Virus record (IMG/VR): IMGVR_UViG_3300009081_000029 | Coordinates: 1 to 32,432 of that record | Direction: 5' to 3' (one strand) | Length of the DNA stretch: 32,432 nt | Source: a virus | Part shown: one piece after another, positions 9,576 to 29,407 of the stretch | How positions within the stretch are numbered: the first letter of the stretch is position 1 | How the letters are laid out: each line of letters starts with the position of its first letter | Notes under the pieces: generated by a model | Database searches by the model: none | Told to the model about the DNA's origin: nothing | Seen by the model: only the letters and a program-made list of their open reading frames with translations | Translations under genes and position numbers: made by a program

Positions 9576-9653
9576 ATGGCGGTGTGGGGCTGCCTTGGGT
9601 GGGGCTTAGGCCCTGCCCTTTATTTAAAAGGATGGTACAAGATATATTATTAA
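9576..9653 (+). other. Unusual GC-rich patch with 25-codon frame
   Basis: An ATG at 9576 opens a 25-residue frame, MAVWGCLGWGLGPALYLKGW followed by YKIYY. It overlaps the start of the gp25-like gene in another frame. The stretch 9577-9618 is far richer in G+C than its surroundings because it includes the hairpin described next. The peptide is hydrophobic and glycine-rich, but its sequence may be dictated by the hairpin. I do not claim it is translated. Confidence 0.25.
9597..9625 (+). terminator. Hairpin with T-rich tail inside the tail operon
   Basis: GGGTGGGGC (9597-9605) can pair over nine positions, two of them G-U, with GCCCTGCCC (9610-9618), leaving the four-base loop TTAG. TTTATTT follows. 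It looks like an intrinsic terminator or attenuator between spike and gp25 genes, 13 bases before the ATG at 9632. It may lower downstream expression or control that start. The structure is read from sequence; activity is inferred. Confidence 0.55.
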
Positions 9654-9937
9654 ACAATAGCGATGACCTTTCAATAGTTAATGGGGATTTCAATGTTGGA
9701 GAAAGCAACGAACAACACGCTATTCTTATTGTAAATACCGCACCTGGTTCATGGAAACAATTTCCCGTTGTCGGTGTTGGCATTGGCGCATTCATTGGCT
9801 CTAGTGGTCAGACGGCCACGATCAAAAGAAGAATTAATGTCCAGATGGAAAAGGATGGCTATACAAATGTACAGGTATCAATTGTCGAAGACGGTAATTC
9901 ATTTAACTATTATTTAACGGCAAACAGAAATGAGTAA
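9632..9937 (+). CDS. gp25/gpW-like baseplate wedge protein
   Basis: The chosen ATG at 9632 gives 101 residues (MVQDILLNNSDDLSIVNGDF). An upstream in-frame GTG at 9584 would run through the GC-rich hairpin and is unlikely. The pattern of a leading DLSIVNGDF strand, a WKQFPVVGVGIGAFIGSSGQ block and a terminal strand-helix (INVQMEKDGYTNVQVSIVED) matches GPW/gp25-like wedge proteins. These link the hub to outer baseplate parts. The gene overlaps the next by eight bases. Confidence 0.75.
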   Translation: MVQDILLNNSDDLSIVNGDFNVGESNEQHAILIVNTAPGSWKQFPVVGVGIGAFIGSSGQTATIKRRINVQMEKDGYTNVQVSIVEDGNSFNYYLTANRNE

Positions 9938-15394: not shown

Positions 15395-16384
15395 ATGAGC
15401 GTTAAAGGAGATATAGTAAAAAAAGAATTAACCCGATTCCCAACCACACCAATACTCACGTTAGCAAAAAAAATATACAAAGACAATCCTAAGGTATTCA
15501 CAAATGTAGCCGATGTCAGGGGTACTCTTAATTACCATACCGGAAAGAGTGGAGTAAAGAATAGAAAAAAGGTCATAGACAGAAGCCATATCCAAATTGT
15601 AACCAATGACACTAACCCATTCAAGTTGCCGGAATCATTCGAGGAGTCATTTGAACCGTACATTATCAGCCAATCTAAGACACTTATAATATCAGACCTA
15701 CATTTCCCCTACCAAAACAATCAGGCTATCACCGCTGCGATTAAATACGGCTTAAAAGAGAAAGTAACCTGCATCCTTATTAACGGTGATTTATTAGACT
15801 TCGCTTCGATTTCACGGCACGAAAAGGATTGGAGACAACGTTCAGTTTATGAAGAATTTGAATCGGTCCGTAATTTCTTAAAGATGTTGCGAGATAAGTT
15901 CCCAAAAGCAAAGATAATTTTTAAAGAAGGAAACCACGACGAGCGGTGGGAAAAGTGGTTGTATGTTAAGGCTCCCGAACTATTTGACGACCCCGAATAT
16001 AAATTAGAAGTCCGGTTAAGATTAGGTGAATTAAAGATTGACATAGTTAAAGACCGCAGACCCGTTAAGATTGGTAAGTTAACCGTATTACATGGACATG
16101 AGATGGCCGGCACTTCGGGAGGGGTGAATCCTGCGCGTAGCACCTTCACTAAGACTTTAGAGAGTGTATTGATAGGACATTTCCATAAGTCGAGTTCCCA
16201 TTCCGAATCCTCAATGTGGGGCGATCTAAAAGTAACTGAAAGTGTCGGTTGTTTATGCGGACTGCACCCGCAGTTCATGCGTGTGAATAAGTGGAATTTC
16301 GGCTTTGCAATAGTTGACCTTAATGTCAAGACGGGGGAGTACCTGGTTGGGAATAAGAAAATAATTAACGGAAAGGTCTACTAA
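15395..16384 (+). CDS. Calcineurin-like metallophosphoesterase with N-terminal HTH-like region
   Basis: The 329-residue protein shows the full set of metallophosphoesterase motifs: SDLH (D101, H103), GDLLD (131-135), GNHDE (179-183), HGHE near 235 and GHFH near 260. Residues 1-60 resemble a helix-turn-helix (LTRFPTTPILTLAKKIYKDN, VRGTLNYHTGKSG) seen in related phage phosphoesterases. Substrate unknown: nucleic acid or nucleotide hydrolysis is likely. As a late-expressed enzyme it could act in DNA processing or counter a host defence. It starts two bases after the spanin gene and overlaps the next (TAATG). Confidence 0.88.
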   Translation: MSVKGDIVKKELTRFPTTPILTLAKKIYKDNPKVFTNVADVRGTLNYHTGKSGVKNRKKVIDRSHIQIVTNDTNPFKLPESFEESFEPYIISQSKTLIISDLHFPYQNNQAITAAIKYGLKEKVTCILINGDLLDFASISRHEKDWRQRSVYEEFESVRNFLKMLRDKFPKAKIIFKEGNHDERWEKWLYVKAPELFDDPEYKLEVRLRLGELKIDIVKDRRPVKIGKLTVLHGHEMAGTSGGVNPARSTFTKTLESVLIGHFHKSSSHSESSMWGDLKVTESVGCLCGLHPQFMRVNKWNFGFAIVDLNVKTGEYLVGNKKIINGKVY

Positions 16385-16674
16385 TGATATTCGAATTCAC
16401 AATTTGGGACACCCACAAGCAACCAATCCAGACAGAGGATGGTGATTTAGTATGGCACAATGTCGAGGATTCTGATGATGATGCCCCCTGGAAGACCTTT
16501 AAGTTTGCTCTGGAATTTAAGCAGGTTAAAGTAGATTACTTTTACGAAACCGTCATATTTCAGCAGGACGTTCCAATCCGTTGCACACGGGTTGTCCTGA
16601 GTGATGGTTCATCCGTTCTTGCTAAATGGCAATACGACACCTTTCGGGATAGATACAACGAGTTGAAGGAGTAG
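16384..16674 (+). CDS. Hypothetical 96-aa protein ending the late operon
   Basis: A protein rich in acidic and aromatic residues (MIFEFTIWDTHKQPIQTEDG, DDDAPWKTFKFALEFKQVKV). Its first residue overlaps the phosphoesterase stop. The predicted beta content and the tight coupling suggest it works with, or modulates, the phosphoesterase, but there is no recognised domain. It is the last rightward gene before the convergent junction near 16690. Confidence 0.6.
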   Translation: MIFEFTIWDTHKQPIQTEDGDLVWHNVEDSDDDAPWKTFKFALEFKQVKVDYFYETVIFQQDVPIRCTRVVLSDGSSVLAKWQYDTFRDRYNELKE

Positions 16675-17907: not shown

Positions 17908-19728
17908 TTAAAATGGTTTATCGTTTAGAAAATCATTGTTTTGCTCTAACCCCTGTCCGTAACTCTTTCTGATTGCCTGGTCGAGATAGTCGATGCCGCC
18001 AAATAAAAACCGTCTGCTCGCTCGTTCTAATCTGAACTCCAGGGTCCCGGTCTTGCCGACAATCTTCTGCCTCCTTATTTTTTTGCTTGAATGGGTGCAG
18101 GTTGGGTTCTCAGGGTCTTCACCTCTGTATGGACGGTGGTAAATTATAATATTGTCCATCTTATTATTCCACATCGCTCCCCCAGCTAAATCAAATACGT
18201 CTGGCTCCGGATAATTTAACGCATCCTTTGGCTTGTGCATAGCCTTCGGGTGAGCAACTATTATAAAGCACTGGTCATTGATTAGTGCGAACTTTTTAAA
18301 GTCACTTAGGACCACATCGAGATACTTGTCATCCCGACCTCCGGTTGACTTGTAATCGTTAACCATTTGATTGAATGGGTCAATCACGCAGAAAGTAACT
18401 TTTTCCTTTATGATTAATTCCAAAAACCGCTCCTTAATGTAATCCGGTGTCGGGCTTAAGTCTTTTGGATAAACGAAAAAGAAACTTTTACTAATCCAAT
18501 CATACACCGCTTCAAAGGTTTTTAAGTCATGCCTAGATAACATATCAGGGGTCTGCGCACCACCTAAGTACATTTCAGTCAGGTCAAAGTAAAATTCATG
18601 CGCAGGGGCATCTTCGGGAGCGAACAAGGCCACCTTGTTACCATTGATGACTTGAATCAATAACAGATACTTTAGGTAGGTGGATTTCCCATAGTTACCA
18701 ATTCCGGACAATAATGTAATCTCCCCCTTTTTATATTTGAAATAATAATCCAGGTCATCTATTCCGGTACTCATTGCACCCTGGTACCCGTTCAAATAAA
18801 TATCAAGTGCCTCAGCTTTTACATCTTCACCAAAAATCACATCTTTAGGCCGGACTTCAAGGTCATAAATTGACGGGTCGAATTCAACCTCTTTTTTATC
18901 TATTTTATTTACGAGGGTTTCTCTACTGAACTCAGCCGTCCCAAAACCCACAGAATTGGCTTTATACGCGCTTTTAATCGTTCGAGTGGTTTCACCCTTA
19001 CTGAAGTCGGTAACCCCGCTTAAAAACGACCCTGTGAAGTATTGCTCACATTCATATTCATTAATCCCAAACCTGCAACACGCTGAAGCTAATTTGTAGA
19101 GAAATAAGTTTCGCTCTCCGGTTCTAAAAGCATCGCCTTTATTCGATAGCCATTTTAGGATATTGTTAAAAGTTTCGCTCTGCGATGCGACTACCGATGT
19201 GACTTCTTTTGGCTCGATCAAATCCGCATAGGTATCGCAACTTTCATTGATTATAATCTCAGGGTCATAACTTTCGTAACAAACCCGGCTCGGATTGATT
19301 CCAGACCTGTCGGCTTCCGGAAAGTGCTTTTTCAACGCTTCGAAATGCTGACGGTGCTTTTTTCCGTCTTTCACTTTAACCAACGCCTTGACGCCTTTTC
19401 CGCTCGGACTAGTCCAAATGGCTTTAAAAAAAGTGTATTGGCAGAGGTCTGACTTGAACGATGACACATCTTCGAGGTCATCAAAGTCCAAAACAATGAA
19501 TGCGCTATGTTCAATTAAATCTGAGTCTTGCCTGTTAGCTGCGAACTTGCCGGAGAAACAAACAGAGGGTAAATTCTTTTTCAGTTCGTTGGCCCGTTCT
19601 TTGTCAAGTGCCTGCCTAATCGCTTCAACTTTTACTTTCGACCTACCTTCTTTGATTCGGAGTAGGGCCTTGTCCACCGAAATGTAATTCGGTTCTTTGC
19701 TGAATATGTTTGAGTATATCGTTACCAT
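17908..19728 (-). CDS. BT4734-like primase fused to DnaB-type helicase
   Basis: The 606-residue protein combines priming and unwinding for phage DNA replication. Residues ~50-165 match the BT4734-like/archaeo-eukaryotic primase region (FIVLDFDD at 77-84, SPSGKGVKALVKV at 108-120). Residues ~185-260 resemble a primase C-terminal linker domain. The C-terminal half is a RecA-like helicase with Walker A SGIGNYGKST (341-350) and Walker B CVIDPFNQ, followed by IIVAHPKAMHKPKDA, which fits motif H3. It starts seven bases inside the preceding small gene. Domain calls firm; exact activities inferred from the families. Confidence 0.85.
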   Translation of the reverse strand: MVTIYSNIFSKEPNYISVDKALLRIKEGRSKVKVEAIRQALDKERANELKKNLPSVCFSGKFAANRQDSDLIEHSAFIVLDFDDLEDVSSFKSDLCQYTFFKAIWTSPSGKGVKALVKVKDGKKHRQHFEALKKHFPEADRSGINPSRVCYESYDPEIIINESCDTYADLIEPKEVTSVVASQSETFNNILKWLSNKGDAFRTGERNLFLYKLASACCRFGINEYECEQYFTGSFLSGVTDFSKGETTRTIKSAYKANSVGFGTAEFSRETLVNKIDKKEVEFDPSIYDLEVRPKDVIFGEDVKAEALDIYLNGYQGAMSTGIDDLDYYFKYKKGEITLLSGIGNYGKSTYLKYLLLIQVINGNKVALFAPEDAPAHEFYFDLTEMYLGGAQTPDMLSRHDLKTFEAVYDWISKSFFFVYPKDLSPTPDYIKERFLELIIKEKVTFCVIDPFNQMVNDYKSTGGRDDKYLDVVLSDFKKFALINDQCFIIVAHPKAMHKPKDALNYPEPDVFDLAGGAMWNNKMDNIIIYHRPYRGEDPENPTCTHSSKKIRRQKIVGKTGTLEFRLERASRRFLFGGIDYLDQAIRKSYGQGLEQNNDFLNDKPF

Positions 19729-20012
19729 TTGTCTCTTTCTGTTGGAACGTAAGAGGAACTAATTGCGTTTAAGTCTTTAACTATCTGAGCGAACCCGTTT
19801 TCTTTTTTAAAAGACCTTAAGCCTGTCAGGTATTTGTCCATTAGGAATGTCAACGACTGTAAACTTACATCAGGCATAATCCTTAGTAGGGTCTTGGCCA
19901 TGTAATCAATCGTTTCATCTGAGTATGGATAAACCACTAAAAGATTTAGTTTAAATAATTCTCCCCCGATCAGGTCAGAGGTTGTTGAATTTTGATTTTT
20001 TTGTAATTCCAT
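19722..20012 (-). CDS. Small protein between initiator and helicase, possible helicase loader
   Basis: The 96-residue protein has helices (SDETIDYMAKTLLRIMPDVS, LQSLTFLMDKYLTGLRSF) and no ATPase motif. It overlaps the initiator gene by 38 bases and the helicase gene by seven, so the three are translationally linked. The gene order initiator - small protein - helicase parallels lambda O-P with its host helicase, which suggests a helicase loader or adaptor. That is inference from order only. Confidence 0.6.
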   Translation of the reverse strand: MELQKNQNSTTSDLIGGELFKLNLLVVYPYSDETIDYMAKTLLRIMPDVSLQSLTFLMDKYLTGLRSFKKENGFAQIVKDLNAISSSYVPTERDKW

Positions 20013-20745
20013 TATTTGTCTTGTTTTTAATTTGTTCCATTATTTCATTGAACTTACCATCTAGGACTTGCAGTTCTTTGTCCTTAAACCAATCAGGCAG
20101 GTTTAAACAGAAGTATTTGAAGGCTCCCACCAAATCCTGTTCGCTTGCATTAGGAAAGACCTTTTGCAATTTCTCGAGGATTGACTTTATTTTTTTTCCT
20201 TGCACCCCTCCGAAGCTCCATCCTACATGAAACTCTTTCAGCCAAAAATCAACTGCAAGTTGATATGTGTTATCTTTACTTGGTATATTAGTACTTAGTT
20301 TATTAGTACTTGGTATATTAGTACTTAGTAGTGTACGGTTTACCGTAGACGGTTCAACCGTTAACGGTCCCACCGTTGACGGCTCCACCGTTGACGGTTT
20401 TTCAGTAAGCGGTGGAACATTATTCCGTGGAACATTATTTTGGTTTGAAGGCTCTCCATTGAATGGTTTATCGTAAACAATATGCTCGTAAATGATTTTA
20501 CCACTTTGTCGTTTCTCAACACTAATAATGTACCCACACTCTGTAAGTTCTTTGAAAATATTATTTAACTTGTCCCTGCCTATTTTTAGCTGACTATGTA
20601 AAGTCGTTTTGTAAATAACCCAGTCAGCGGGAAGGCTTAAAAAATATGCTAATAAACCAATCGCCTCAATACTTAAATCCGCTTTGAATATGTCATTCGG
20701 TAAGACGGTATAGTTTGATGCGTGTTTTGATTTATAAATTGCCAT
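19975..20745 (-). CDS. Replication initiator with winged-helix N-domain and repeat-built linker
   Basis: The 256-residue protein has an N-terminal winged helix (SIEAIGLLAYFLSLPADWVI, IGRDKLNNIFKELTECGYI). A linker of pentapeptide repeats follows at residues ~100-160 (PSTVEPSTVGPLTVEPSTV, STNIPSTNKLSTNIP). A C-terminal helical domain completes it (LAVDFWLKEFHVGW, VFPNASEQDLVGAFKYFCL). This plan of DNA-binding domain, repetitive linker and C-terminal partner domain is that of phage replisome organisers such as lambda O. The linker-coding DNA is a run of 15-bp repeats that looks like the origin. It is preceded by its own promoter and RNA leader. Confidence 0.82.
   Translation of the reverse strand: MAIYKSKHASNYTVLPNDIFKADLSIEAIGLLAYFLSLPADWVIYKTTLHSQLKIGRDKLNNIFKELTECGYIISVEKRQSGKIIYEHIVYDKPFNGEPSNQNNVPRNNVPPLTEKPSTVEPSTVGPLTVEPSTVNRTLLSTNIPSTNKLSTNIPSKDNTYQLAVDFWLKEFHVGWSFGGVQGKKIKSILEKLQKVFPNASEQDLVGAFKYFCLNLPDWFKDKELQVLDGKFNEIMEQIKNKTNNGITKKSKFNNL
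20266..20440. repeat. Putative replication origin: three families of 15-bp repeats
   Basis: Inside the initiator gene an unbroken 15-bp periodicity runs for about 175 bp. AT-rich units TGGTATATTAGTACT or TAGTTTATTAGTACT occupy 20281-20325, with a degenerate unit before them. Palindrome-like units of type ACCGTTGACGG plus four bases occupy 20342-20401 (four copies). GTGGAACATTATT recurs at 20412 and 20427. Dyad iterons next to an AT-rich block match lambda-type origins (iterons plus unwinding element) placed in the initiator gene. Repeats are seen; origin function is inferred. Confidence 0.7.
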
Positions 20746-20755
20746 ATTTTTAAAT

Positions 20756-20842
20756 AAAAAAAGCCCGCTCTATACTTTTCTCAGTCAGATTGAGAATTTC
20801 TAAAAACGGGCAATAAAATCTTGAATCCCGTATCTGACACGG
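20756..20842 (-). promoter_or_regulatory. Leader RNA with complementary-loop hairpins and terminator (attenuator)
   Basis: Read leftward from the promoter at 20849-20880. Hairpin I has stem CCGT/ACGG (20842-20828) and loop GTCAGAT (20838-20832). Hairpin II has apical stem TTCTCA/TGAGAA (20796-20778) and loop ATCTGAC (20790-20784), the exact reverse complement of loop I. Its base GCCCG/CGGGC (20811-20807, 20767-20763), extended by U-A/U-G pairs, is followed by seven T, ending 10 bases before the initiator ATG. ACGGG at 20831-20827 can alternatively pair with CCCGT at 20810-20806, breaking both stems. This has the parts of a regulated attenuator; what it senses is unknown. Confidence 0.6.
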
Positions 20843-20848
20843 TTAATG

Positions 20849-20899
20849 CAAATTTACTCTCTTTGTAAAGTCTATGCAAACACTATGCATACACTTTAC
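20849..20899 (-). promoter_or_regulatory. Leftward promoter within a 35-bp operator dyad
   Basis: Leftward TTTG (complement of 20877-20880), a 20-base spacer and TAAATTTG (complement of 20849-20856) form an exact Bacteroidota promoter, with the start point expected near 20844-20846. The -33 element lies in a dyad at 20865-20899: arms GTAAAGTCTATGCA and TGCATACACTTTAC match at 13 of 14 positions around a 7-base centre. A dimeric repressor bound here would block the promoter. TTTGCATA at the -33 is shared with the promoter at 26134-26165. Confidence 0.72.
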
Positions 20900-27440: not shown

Positions 27441-27654
27441 TTCCCGTACCAAGTAGTAACCATCTTGCATTAACACGAGGAAAAGCCCGAAGTATCGCAC
27501 AGATATACTCATAACCAGGCTTATTCTTTTCCTTAATTATCTTATCAGTAGTGGCAGGACCCTGACTTATTGTAACAGAGAATGAGTTGGGGTTCATGCC
27601 ATACACCTGCATTATAAATTTAATTCTTTCTCCTATGGTCTGTGGGGATTCCAT
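27424..27654 (-). CDS. Small XRE-like regulator facing away from the packaging operon
   Basis: The ATG at 27654 gives 76 residues (MESPQTIGERIKFIMQVYGM, NPNSFSVTISQGPATTDKII, ICAILRAFPRVNARWLLLGT), the plan of a short XRE helix-turn-helix domain; the ending NARWLLLGTG is typical. A longer frame from 27762 reads through the promoter region and is not used. It is divergent from the terminase operon with the 19-bp box between them. It may control that operon and, through the second box copy, the late operon at 469. Confidence 0.65.
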   Translation of the reverse strand: MESPQTIGERIKFIMQVYGMNPNSFSVTISQGPATTDKIIKEKNKPGYEYICAILRAFPRVNARWLLLGTGTIFQK

Positions 27655-27681
27655 TCTGTGAATATAAAGGTAATAACTAAA

Positions 27682-27712
27682 TTTGGAAATATAGCGAAAA
27701 GTTGATATCTTG
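27682..27712 (+). promoter_or_regulatory. Promoter region with 19-bp late box, copy 2
   Basis: TATAGCGAAAAGTTGATAT at 27690-27708 repeats the box at 432-450 with one change. TTTG at 27682-27685 and TATCTTG at 27706-27712 are a loose -33/-7 pair with a 20-base spacer for rightward transcription. Their offset from the box differs by about four bases from copy 1, so the box is more likely a protein-binding site than part of the core promoter. Confidence 0.55.
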
Positions 27713-27734
27713 CAAGTCAAAATAATGATTATCA

Positions 27735-28019
27735 GTGGCAAAGTTTCAGAAAGGCACTCCAAAACTAGGAGGACGAGAGAAGGGCGTAGCTAATAAAGTA
27801 ACGCAAGATGCACGCAAATTATTTACCTACACCCTAGAGCGTCAGGTGGTACATATTCATGATGCATTTATGGAAGTGCGAGAGAAAGACCCTGCAAAGT
27901 TCTTAGAACTATTCGCTAAGTATGCACAATACTTTGTTCCCAAGCAGGTTGACATCACCACCAACGGCGAGCAGGTAAGGCAGGTATTTAAGATTGGAAA
28001 CGTTGAGGTTGAACTTTGA
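27735..28019 (+). CDS. Terminase small subunit-like protein
   Basis: Starting at a GTG (27735), the 94-residue protein opens MAKFQKGTPKLGGREKGVAN, then KVTQDARKLFTYTLERQV and FLELFAKYAQYFVPKQVDI. The GGREKGVANKVT start and helical body match short terminase small subunits or DUF5681-like packaging proteins that select phage DNA for cleavage. The nearby ATG at 27725 is in another frame. Its stop overlaps the large subunit start. Confidence 0.75.
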   Translation: MAKFQKGTPKLGGREKGVANKVTQDARKLFTYTLERQVVHIHDAFMEVREKDPAKFLELFAKYAQYFVPKQVDITTNGEQVRQVFKIGNVEVEL

Positions 28020-29407
28020 CGAAACAAATCATATTTGAATCTTTCCCAAAGCAGGAGGAGTTCCTTGAAGCGGTATTCTCTAATAAGTTCAATATTATTC
28101 TTTATGGAGGTGCAATTAGGGGGGGCAAGACCTTTGCCGGCATAGGAGCATTATTACTACTCTCTAAGATGTACCCTGGTTCTAAATGGGTAATTGTCCG
28201 TAATACGTTACAGACATTAAAGTTAAATACTATCCCATCCTTCCGGAAGATTTGCCCTCAATCATTCATTAAGACATACAACCAAGATACCCAGACCGTA
28301 ACATTCAATAATGGAAGTCAATTAATCTTCCTAGGCGAGAACTTTGCAGACGATAAAGAGTTAAACCGGTTTAAGGGATTGGAGTGTAACGGGTTCCTAT
28401 TAGAAGAAATTAACGAACTTCAGCAAAAGACTTTCTATAAGTGCATTGAGCGTGCCGGCTCTCAAATTATCAGCAAGCAACCCAAACCATTAATACTTGC
28501 AACGTGCAACCCTGCGAGTAATTGGGTTAAGGATTTATTCTATGACCGGTGGAAATTAAATTCCCTGCCGCATAATTGGCTTTACATTCCATCCAAAATT
28601 ACAGACAATCCATTCATTCCAGAAGATTACAAAGAATCACTTAAGACCATGCCACCTTATGAATACGAGGTGTTTGTTAATGGTAATTGGGATTTGCAGG
28701 AAAGAAACGGAGCGGAGTTTTACAAGTACTTCAGTTTGGATAAACACGTGGCACCATGTAATTACGAACCATCCCTACCTCTGCACATTAGTTGGGATGA
28801 GAACGTTAACCCATATTTACCCTGCGGCATCTTCCAGGTGCAGGGAAAGGACATTCGATTTATAGATTTGATCTTAGGTATTAATCCTAAGAATACGATA
28901 AAAGATGTGTGTAGGGAGTTCACTAACAGATACCCTCATCACAAGTCTGGACTATTTGTGTATGGGGATGCTACCTCACAGAAAGAAGATGTCAAGCAAG
29001 AGAAGGGATATAACTTTTTCAGCATGGTGCTTAAAGAGCTTCATAAATACAATCCCCAGAAAAGAGTGCCGCCGAGTAACCCATCAGTAGTTATGCGGGG
29101 GCAATTCTTTAACGGTGTTCTTTACAACAATTATGCCGGCATCACTTTTAAAATCGCACCTCACTTAAAAGAAGCTATCACAGACTTTAGCAACACCAAA
29201 GAAGCGGCAGACGGGACCAAAGCTAAGATAACGGTGAAAGATGCTAAGAGCGGAGTGTCTTATCAGCAATACGGACACATCACAGACCTATCAGATTATC
29301 TACTCTGCAAGCTATTCCCATCAGACTATCAATCATTCCAGACAGGTGGAGTGGTTAGTTTTTCACGAAGTGGTGGAGGAAATAAGAGCGAGCGACTGCG
29401 CCTGTAA
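28016..29407 (+). CDS. terL: Terminase large subunit
   Basis: The 463-residue packaging motor has Walker A LYGGAIRGGKT (residues 29-39), Walker B NGFLLEE (125-131) and a C-terminal nuclease domain with spaced acidic residues (ISWDENVNPY, GLFVYGDATSQ, HITDLSDYLL). It translocates DNA into the prohead and cuts it. The start is a TTG overlapping the preceding stop (TTGA); no other start precedes the ATPase. Length is normal. Confidence 0.92.
   Translation: MTKQIIFESFPKQEEFLEAVFSNKFNIILYGGAIRGGKTFAGIGALLLLSKMYPGSKWVIVRNTLQTLKLNTIPSFRKICPQSFIKTYNQDTQTVTFNNGSQLIFLGENFADDKELNRFKGLECNGFLLEEINELQQKTFYKCIERAGSQIISKQPKPLILATCNPASNWVKDLFYDRWKLNSLPHNWLYIPSKITDNPFIPEDYKESLKTMPPYEYEVFVNGNWDLQERNGAEFYKYFSLDKHVAPCNYEPSLPLHISWDENVNPYLPCGIFQVQGKDIRFIDLILGINPKNTIKDVCREFTNRYPHHKSGLFVYGDATSQKEDVKQEKGYNFFSMVLKELHKYNPQKRVPPSNPSVVMRGQFFNGVLYNNYAGITFKIAPHLKEAITDFSNTKEAADGTKAKITVKDAKSGVSYQQYGHITDLSDYLLCKLFPSDYQSFQTGGVVSFSRSGGGNKSERLRL

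Follow-up and report, generated by a model that had tools for sequence, protein, structure and literature searches.

Replication of ColE1 is controlled, with the participation of Rom/Rop, by RNA I and RNA II, the complementary hairpin loops of which are about 7 nt long and pair along their entire length; changes in these loops define incompatibility groups. Purine-type riboswitches combine an intramolecular loop-loop contact, the loop pair of which is conserved, with a terminator arrangement. The put RNA of phage HK022, a short structured leader of conserved sequence, opens an early operon and acts on downstream terminators via contact with the polymerase. The attenuator that controls the replication initiator of plasmid pT181 has a first hairpin that kisses an antisense RNA (PMC3753616).

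The last of these is the nearest functional parallel to the leader described here, which was found in a virus record of 32,432 bases (the whole stretch of DNA analysed, hereafter the window) and lies with its gene on the minus strand. Both the pT181 RNAI/repC leader and the phage leader place a 5' hairpin and an intrinsic terminator before a replication-initiator gene, with specificity located in kissing loops (PMC3753616). The partner in pT181 is a counter-transcribed antisense RNA, whereas the phage leader holds both loops itself and the partner is the apical loop of the terminator. An antisense gene would be unnecessary because the partner loop is already on the same strand, and a check of the + strand of the window leader for antisense promoters gave only weak sigma-70-type matches, no more than in shuffles. 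As in ColE1, the loops are of about 7 nt and fully complementary and the pairing is limited to them, but neither primer RNA nor antisense gene appears to be involved, both partner hairpins belong to a single mRNA leader of lytic phages, and the leader precedes protein initiators. We have filed it as a kissing-RNA transcription attenuator that is not a member of the pT181 or ColE1 families. Our preferred reading, to which we assign a probability of about 0.62, is that it would represent a widespread family of cis-encoded RNA attenuators of Bacteroidota phages, in which kissing alters termination and the terminated leader can additionally act in trans.

In the window, a Bacteroidota-type promoter was read from the sequence at 20849..20880 (minus strand), with TTTG at 20880-20877, an N20 spacer and the -7 box TAAATTTG at 20856-20849. 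The boxes match the consensus of the Bacteroidota primary sigma factor perfectly. This promoter, absent from the first-pass annotation, ends 6 nt 5' of hairpin I, and TAnnTTTG is found 5' of hairpin I in nearly all related leaders. Hairpin I, CCGT[GTCAGAT]ACGG (20828..20842), is assigned from sequence and fold to the predicted 5' end of the transcript, with arms CCGT at 20842-20839 and ACGG at 20831-20828 and loop I, GTCAGAT, at 20838-20832; its stem and loop covary in relatives. A single-stranded A/U-rich spacer of 16 nt (20812..20827; sequence and predicted fold), which measures about 14-25 nt in relatives, leads to the intrinsic terminator (20756..20811), where the GC-rich stem of GCCCG (20811-20807) and CGGGC (20767-20763) encloses hairpin II and is immediately followed by T7 (20762-20756); the GC arms and the T tract are conserved among relatives. 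Hairpin II, TTCTCA[ATCTGAC]TGAGAA (20778..20796), has arms at 20796-20791 (TTCTCA) and 20783-20778 (TGAGAA) and was read from the sequence, with two-sided changes of the kissing helix in relatives. Its loop, ATCTGAC (20790-20784), is the exact complement of loop I, and the T7 tract ends 10 nt before the ATG at 20745. The hairpins, loops, terminator, T7 and 10-nt gap had all been placed correctly to the base by the first-pass annotation.

The gene under putative control (19975..20745, minus strand) encodes a 256-aa wHTH DnaD-like replication initiator or helicase loader, assigned by the PHROG families for DnaD-like helicase loaders and replication initiation. It is followed in the replication operon by a 96-aa ORF (19722..20012, minus strand) with no family match and by a 606-aa DNA primase/helicase (17908..19728, minus strand; Pfam BT4734-like_N, PHROG DNA primase/helicase). 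Within the initiator gene, four tandem 15-nt repeats of a ACCGTTGACGG-like unit were seen at 20342-20401 and a second 15-nt periodic repeat at 20270-20329, and these repeats look like origin iterons.

The predicted MFE fold of the window leader (-25.5 kcal/mol, z = -2.96) lengthens the terminator stem to 9 bp; in hairpin I, G-U and U-A pairs form within the 7-nt loop and leave a 6-bp stem and a 3-nt loop. Loop I is thus partly closed in the prediction, which counts against the preferred reading. As a single sequence, the window pattern was not significant in 32 kb and shuffles at times scored equally high; we therefore turned to comparison across relatives.

Leaders were collected in three ways, by gene homology, by patterns that left the loops free and by blastn. 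With the replication protein of the window as query, relatives were retrieved from IMG/VR, the leaders of which have the layout in common but not the sequence, for example AGCTT[GTGCAG]AAGCT with GGA[CTGCAC]TCC, GTAG[TTGCAG]CTAC with a CTGCAA loop, and GATG[AGTTGCGG]CATC with GAG[ACCGCAAC]CTC. Of 55 distinct regions upstream of homologous genes, 25 carried the arrangement in a descriptor scan with strict settings and 43 in one with relaxed settings; the corresponding numbers for 1100 shuffles were 39 and 272. On this comparative evidence, the leader pattern is far beyond chance. Three leaders missed by the scanner were found by eye (L007, L082 and L083), and in two further cases missed at the initiator the leader stands before a small upstream ORF (L013) or an inserted GIY-YIG-like gene (L063). 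No leader was found at the initiator in the upstream regions of five homologues (L019, L059, L066, L073 and L079), and in G402, the only full record checked among the leader-less relatives, no leader was found anywhere. Because of these few relatives and G402, the leader is not essential to every such replication module.

In two further scans of viral contigs, the variable loop bases were left unspecified. When the stem-only pattern GAGTGTNNNNNACTCATTAA followed a TAnnTTTG box, a full 7-nt complement lay downstream in 16 of 17 matches, compared with 2 of 28 matches without the box. With TTTGN{15,40}TWARAACTTATTGCCC, a spacer and terminator pattern in which neither hairpin I nor the loops are fixed, the hairpin I loop was wholly complementary to the terminator loop in 66 of 69 distinct sequences, the remaining three having no plausible leader ORF. 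Variant leaders lacking a clear hairpin I were observed in L001/L008 (2900-3000) and L021 (3867-3990), where a 5' tail (CCGACCAA and GCATACCC, respectively) is complementary to the terminator loop.

Twenty nearly full phage records carry, with few exceptions, one leader per genome, at the replication gene or at the ORF directly before it; the copy detected in G410 stands before a ParB-methyltransferase-like gene that lies upstream of the initiator. The leader is also present in more than 100 records of cultured Flavobacterium phages. These cultured members were found only via a downstream initiator protein, as blastn of the window leader against cultured phages returned chance pieces only and blastn of three metagenome leaders gave no cultured-phage matches. 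Among homologues in gut Bacteroides, Parabacteroides and Alistipes phages, the initiator lies mid-operon with no space for a leader. A single pattern match was obtained in 395 Bacteroidota genomes, and the initiator protein was found in only 2 bacterial genomes; because matches in bacterial genomes are so few, the leader is treated here as a phage element that is, judging from these searches, essentially absent outside phages.

Whole-leader alignment by MAFFT misplaced the variable loops, so the hairpin cores were aligned instead. The covariation set comprised 21 leaders with a 7-nt kiss, which had been chosen by the scanner on complementarity and are therefore 100% paired by construction; within it, two-sided changes occur at all seven kissing pairs, and the kissing covariation score was 0.903, against 0.184 for shuffles and about 0.1 when the partners were slid. 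Sliding by a single base abolishes the pairing. The stems of both hairpins covary as well. Kissing sequences in the scan set are of 25 kinds and stem I tetramers of 18, and with the alleles found outside it (GTGCAG, TTGCAG, TTCGCG, GTCGTCG, GTGAGACG, GTGAGAAG, GTGGAACG, GTGAGATG and TGAGAGC) the distinct loop pairs number at least 30. Cross-matches among kissing alleles amount to 6 of 600 and are read as nested alleles. The cultured alleles GTGAGACG/CGTCTCAC, GTGAGAAG/CTTCTCAC and GTGGAACG/CGTTCCAC are all perfect complements in leaders that are 86-94% alike. The helix measures 6 to 10 bp, usually 7, and the usual frame is GUNNNAK for loop I and MUNNNAC for loop II, so that U2 and A6 are common to both loops.

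This U2/A6 frame resembles anticodon-type U-turn loops, by resemblance only. By eye, the internal loop below hairpin II is often AGUA opposite GAA (L010, L014 and L017); it is also present in the window with the strands swapped, and it resembles the bulged-G (loop E) motif.

These data make a kissing RNA nearly certain. Uncompensated loss of loop complementarity in homologous leaders, which the first-pass annotation had named as evidence against its loop-loop contact, is the opposite of what was found: essentially every homologous leader is compensated, and the kissing half of the earlier reading is thus strongly supported. Its other half, a strand exchange through ACGGG of hairpin I and CCCGT of the terminator stem, did not hold. 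In this alternative, GTCAGATACGGG would pair with CCCGT...ATCTGAC as an antiterminator helix, and the ACGGG-CCCGT pairing is indeed present in the window; this 5-nt match is, however, unique to the window, such complementarity does not exceed 4 nt in most other leaders, and immediately beyond the loops pairing is depleted. Watson-Crick complementarity was found in 1 of 39 cases at each of the positions +-1 and +-2 beyond the loop edges, a low level that is partly due to the habitual U-A and A-U closing pairs. The restriction of pairing to the loops favours loop-loop kissing over a longer strand exchange, which we regard as highly improbable; conserved strand exchange or pre-emptor pairing between the hairpin I strand and the terminator arm, seen in the window only, was rejected.

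The two 7-mers GTCAGAT and ATCTGAC could also act at the DNA level, as inverted operator half-sites or recombination sites, since they form inverted repeats the sequences of which change together. They sit, however, exactly in the loops of hairpins with independently covarying stems (18 stem I tetramers), their orientation is constant, they always lie between promoter and T tract, and the one-base slide abolishes their pairing. We consider a DNA-level function extremely unlikely, and a DNA inverted-repeat operator was rejected on the stem covariation.

Scans with Rfam 15 covariance models gave nothing at the gathering cut-off at the leader in the window or at 23 leader-bearing loci, and the sub-threshold matches at a permissive threshold were due to chance. 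No description of a kissing-loop leader was found in the searchable literature, and the text of the paper on the Baltic phages (PMC7077304) mentions neither RNA nor promoters. The family is apparently undescribed, in agreement with the earlier statement that no described family has this layout. A different, known cis-regulatory motif was observed close to the same module in the Flavobacterium phage morran9-1, where a DUF805b RNA (RF02914; L355 856-890) precedes a ParB-like gene. The lack of an Rfam match also bears on the idea of a riboswitch that senses a ligand, with kissing loops as tertiary contact and a terminator as expression platform. Aptamer-like kissing hairpins with a terminator do resemble purine riboswitches; yet the phage leaders have no conserved core like a ligand pocket, their loops, stems and internal loops vary, only complementarity and the loose GUNNNA frame are common, and the loop pair that is conserved in purine riboswitches is hypervariable here. 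A riboswitch is accordingly very unlikely.

The genes behind the leader are unrelated to each other and include wHTH/DnaD-like, HTH_36, Lin1244/Lin1753-N and DUF1376-like proteins, two kinds without a Pfam match, and GIY-YIG or HNH-like ORFs. In the mumin and snusmum phages, a ResIII helicase and VirE module stands behind a leader that shares 92-94% identity with the one found in phages carrying an initiator and a TOPRIM primase. Since unrelated genes follow the leader, autoregulation through a single initiator protein appears unlikely, and the regulator of such a variable module is more likely to be RNA or a factor able to recognise every kissing complex. At the level of sequence, the comparison establishes the two hairpins, the compensated kissing, the terminator, the promoter and the position before non-homologous replication modules.

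Two side observations concern these modules. Endonuclease ORFs (GIY-YIG, HNH and NUMOD4-type) occur directly behind the leader, some with a leader copy of their own (L063 3572-4000, L221 415, L234 5524, L032 2244 and L356 2700-2800), and insertions of homing-endonuclease-like ORFs seem to have a hot spot just 3' of the leader. The replication proteins of L024, L093, L198, L115, L149, L199 and L226 have unrelated N-terminal domains and common short C-terminal tails (..NVPTNKITTQIKLK and ..YAEREW..LKNL), as if origin-binding domains had been swapped between a constant leader and a constant tail that would contact the helicase.

Leader alleles differ even between closely similar phages. Between L032 and L039, identity reaches 96% and 95% in the two flanks but 64% in the leader. 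The Flavobacterium phages elemoA_13-1A and elemoA_13-1B, which share the same host and come from one Baltic mesocosm study, were compared in 150-bp windows, for which the median identity is 100%; only 14 of 407 windows fall below 88%, and the leader is in one of them. Its identity is about 73%, compared with about 91-100% in the flanks, and over the 3.5 kb to each side, end effects aside, no other stretch of 100 aligned columns falls below about 91%. The other windows below 88% include the region of a tail-fibre-like (YapH) gene and a gene indel. The few divergent loci, which are the leader, a small early gene present in only one of the two phages and the YapH gene, lie at 9601-9750, 16051-16500 and 27451-28200 of elemoA_13-1A (L368). 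Among 63 elemo records, 4 carry one leader allele and 59 the other. Two genomes have two leaders with different loops: L032 carries GTACCAG before an HNH-like gene and GTCGGAT before the initiator, and sniff9-1 carries GTCGTCG before a NUMOD4-type endonuclease and GTGAGACG before the replication module. On these alignments, leader alleles are exchanged as cassettes and form a hypervariable locus in the near-isogenic elemoA phages. Because of the allele swaps and the differing loops in the two leaders of one genome, loop identity is suggested to matter between molecules.

The exchange bears on a purely cis-acting element, in which kissing would set basal terminator efficiency or timing, for example by sensing the speed of RNA polymerase, and loop diversity would result from neutral compensatory drift and recombination. 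A single transcript does hold every part needed for this, and the stepwise compensated variants GTGAGACG, GTGAGAAG and GTGGAACG are expected from drift; on the other hand, the leader cassette is replaced between near-identical phages as one of few divergent loci beside the tail-fibre region, and one genome can hold two leaders with different loops. We regard this explanation as possible but doubtful.

Alternatively, the kissing complex could be a platform for a phage or host protein that enables read-through, as in put and nut RNAs or Rop-bound kissing loops. Like HK022 put and lambdoid antitermination, the phage leader is a short structured RNA that would control termination; it differs in having its own terminator and in conserving complementarity rather than sequence. 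A factor reading structure would tolerate any loop sequence, which matches the observed diversity, and the loops have the common frame GUNNNAK/MUNNNAC. No candidate gene has been identified, however, and none of the proteins encoded close to the leader differs strongly between elemoA phages of the two loop alleles, although a sequence-independent factor would not need such a difference. Antitermination of this kind is, in our judgement, somewhat unlikely.

In the preferred reading, in which the leader likely attenuates the replication module, the transcript would begin at hairpin I and meet the intrinsic terminator before the first codon of the module. While the terminator arm is still open, the nascent leader would kiss its own loop II, and the helix between loops I and II, restricted to the loops, would alter termination, the leader thereby gating transcription into the module. 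By a rough estimate from spacer length, kissing in cis looks sterically possible with a fully closed terminator, and kissing therefore need not oppose termination. The terminated leader, about 90-130 nt long, would carry both loops and could engage, in trans, the hairpin I of a newly started transcript; such competition would lead to a dose-dependent shut-off that varies with copy number or time and is specific to the loop allele. Loop alleles would then act as specificity groups, with the specificity residing in the RNA or in a sequence-blind reader of the kissing complex and not in an allele-specific initiator protein. The trans step, which we infer from the allele data, is the least certain part of the model. 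An extension that we put forward as speculative and rather improbable is an RNA-only self/non-self system, in which the terminated leader of an established phage would act in trans, by way of its loop allele, on the nascent replication leader of a co-infecting phage with that allele, limiting copy number and blocking such competitors.

The at least 30 loop pairs constitute a natural library, apparently mutually orthogonal; kissing attenuators with this property are in demand for building RNA circuits. The cultured, near-isogenic elemoA_13-1A and elemoA_13-1B with their different alleles make both the cis and the trans hypotheses directly testable. In the biology of these phages, one RNA leader has been retained while the replication module behind it changes for unrelated ones, and if the self/non-self reading were true, the leader would be a hypervariable 'incompatibility' locus of lytic phages. 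Little is known of gene control in Bacteroidota phages, and the leader gives their replication modules a regulatory RNA that is defined by sequence.
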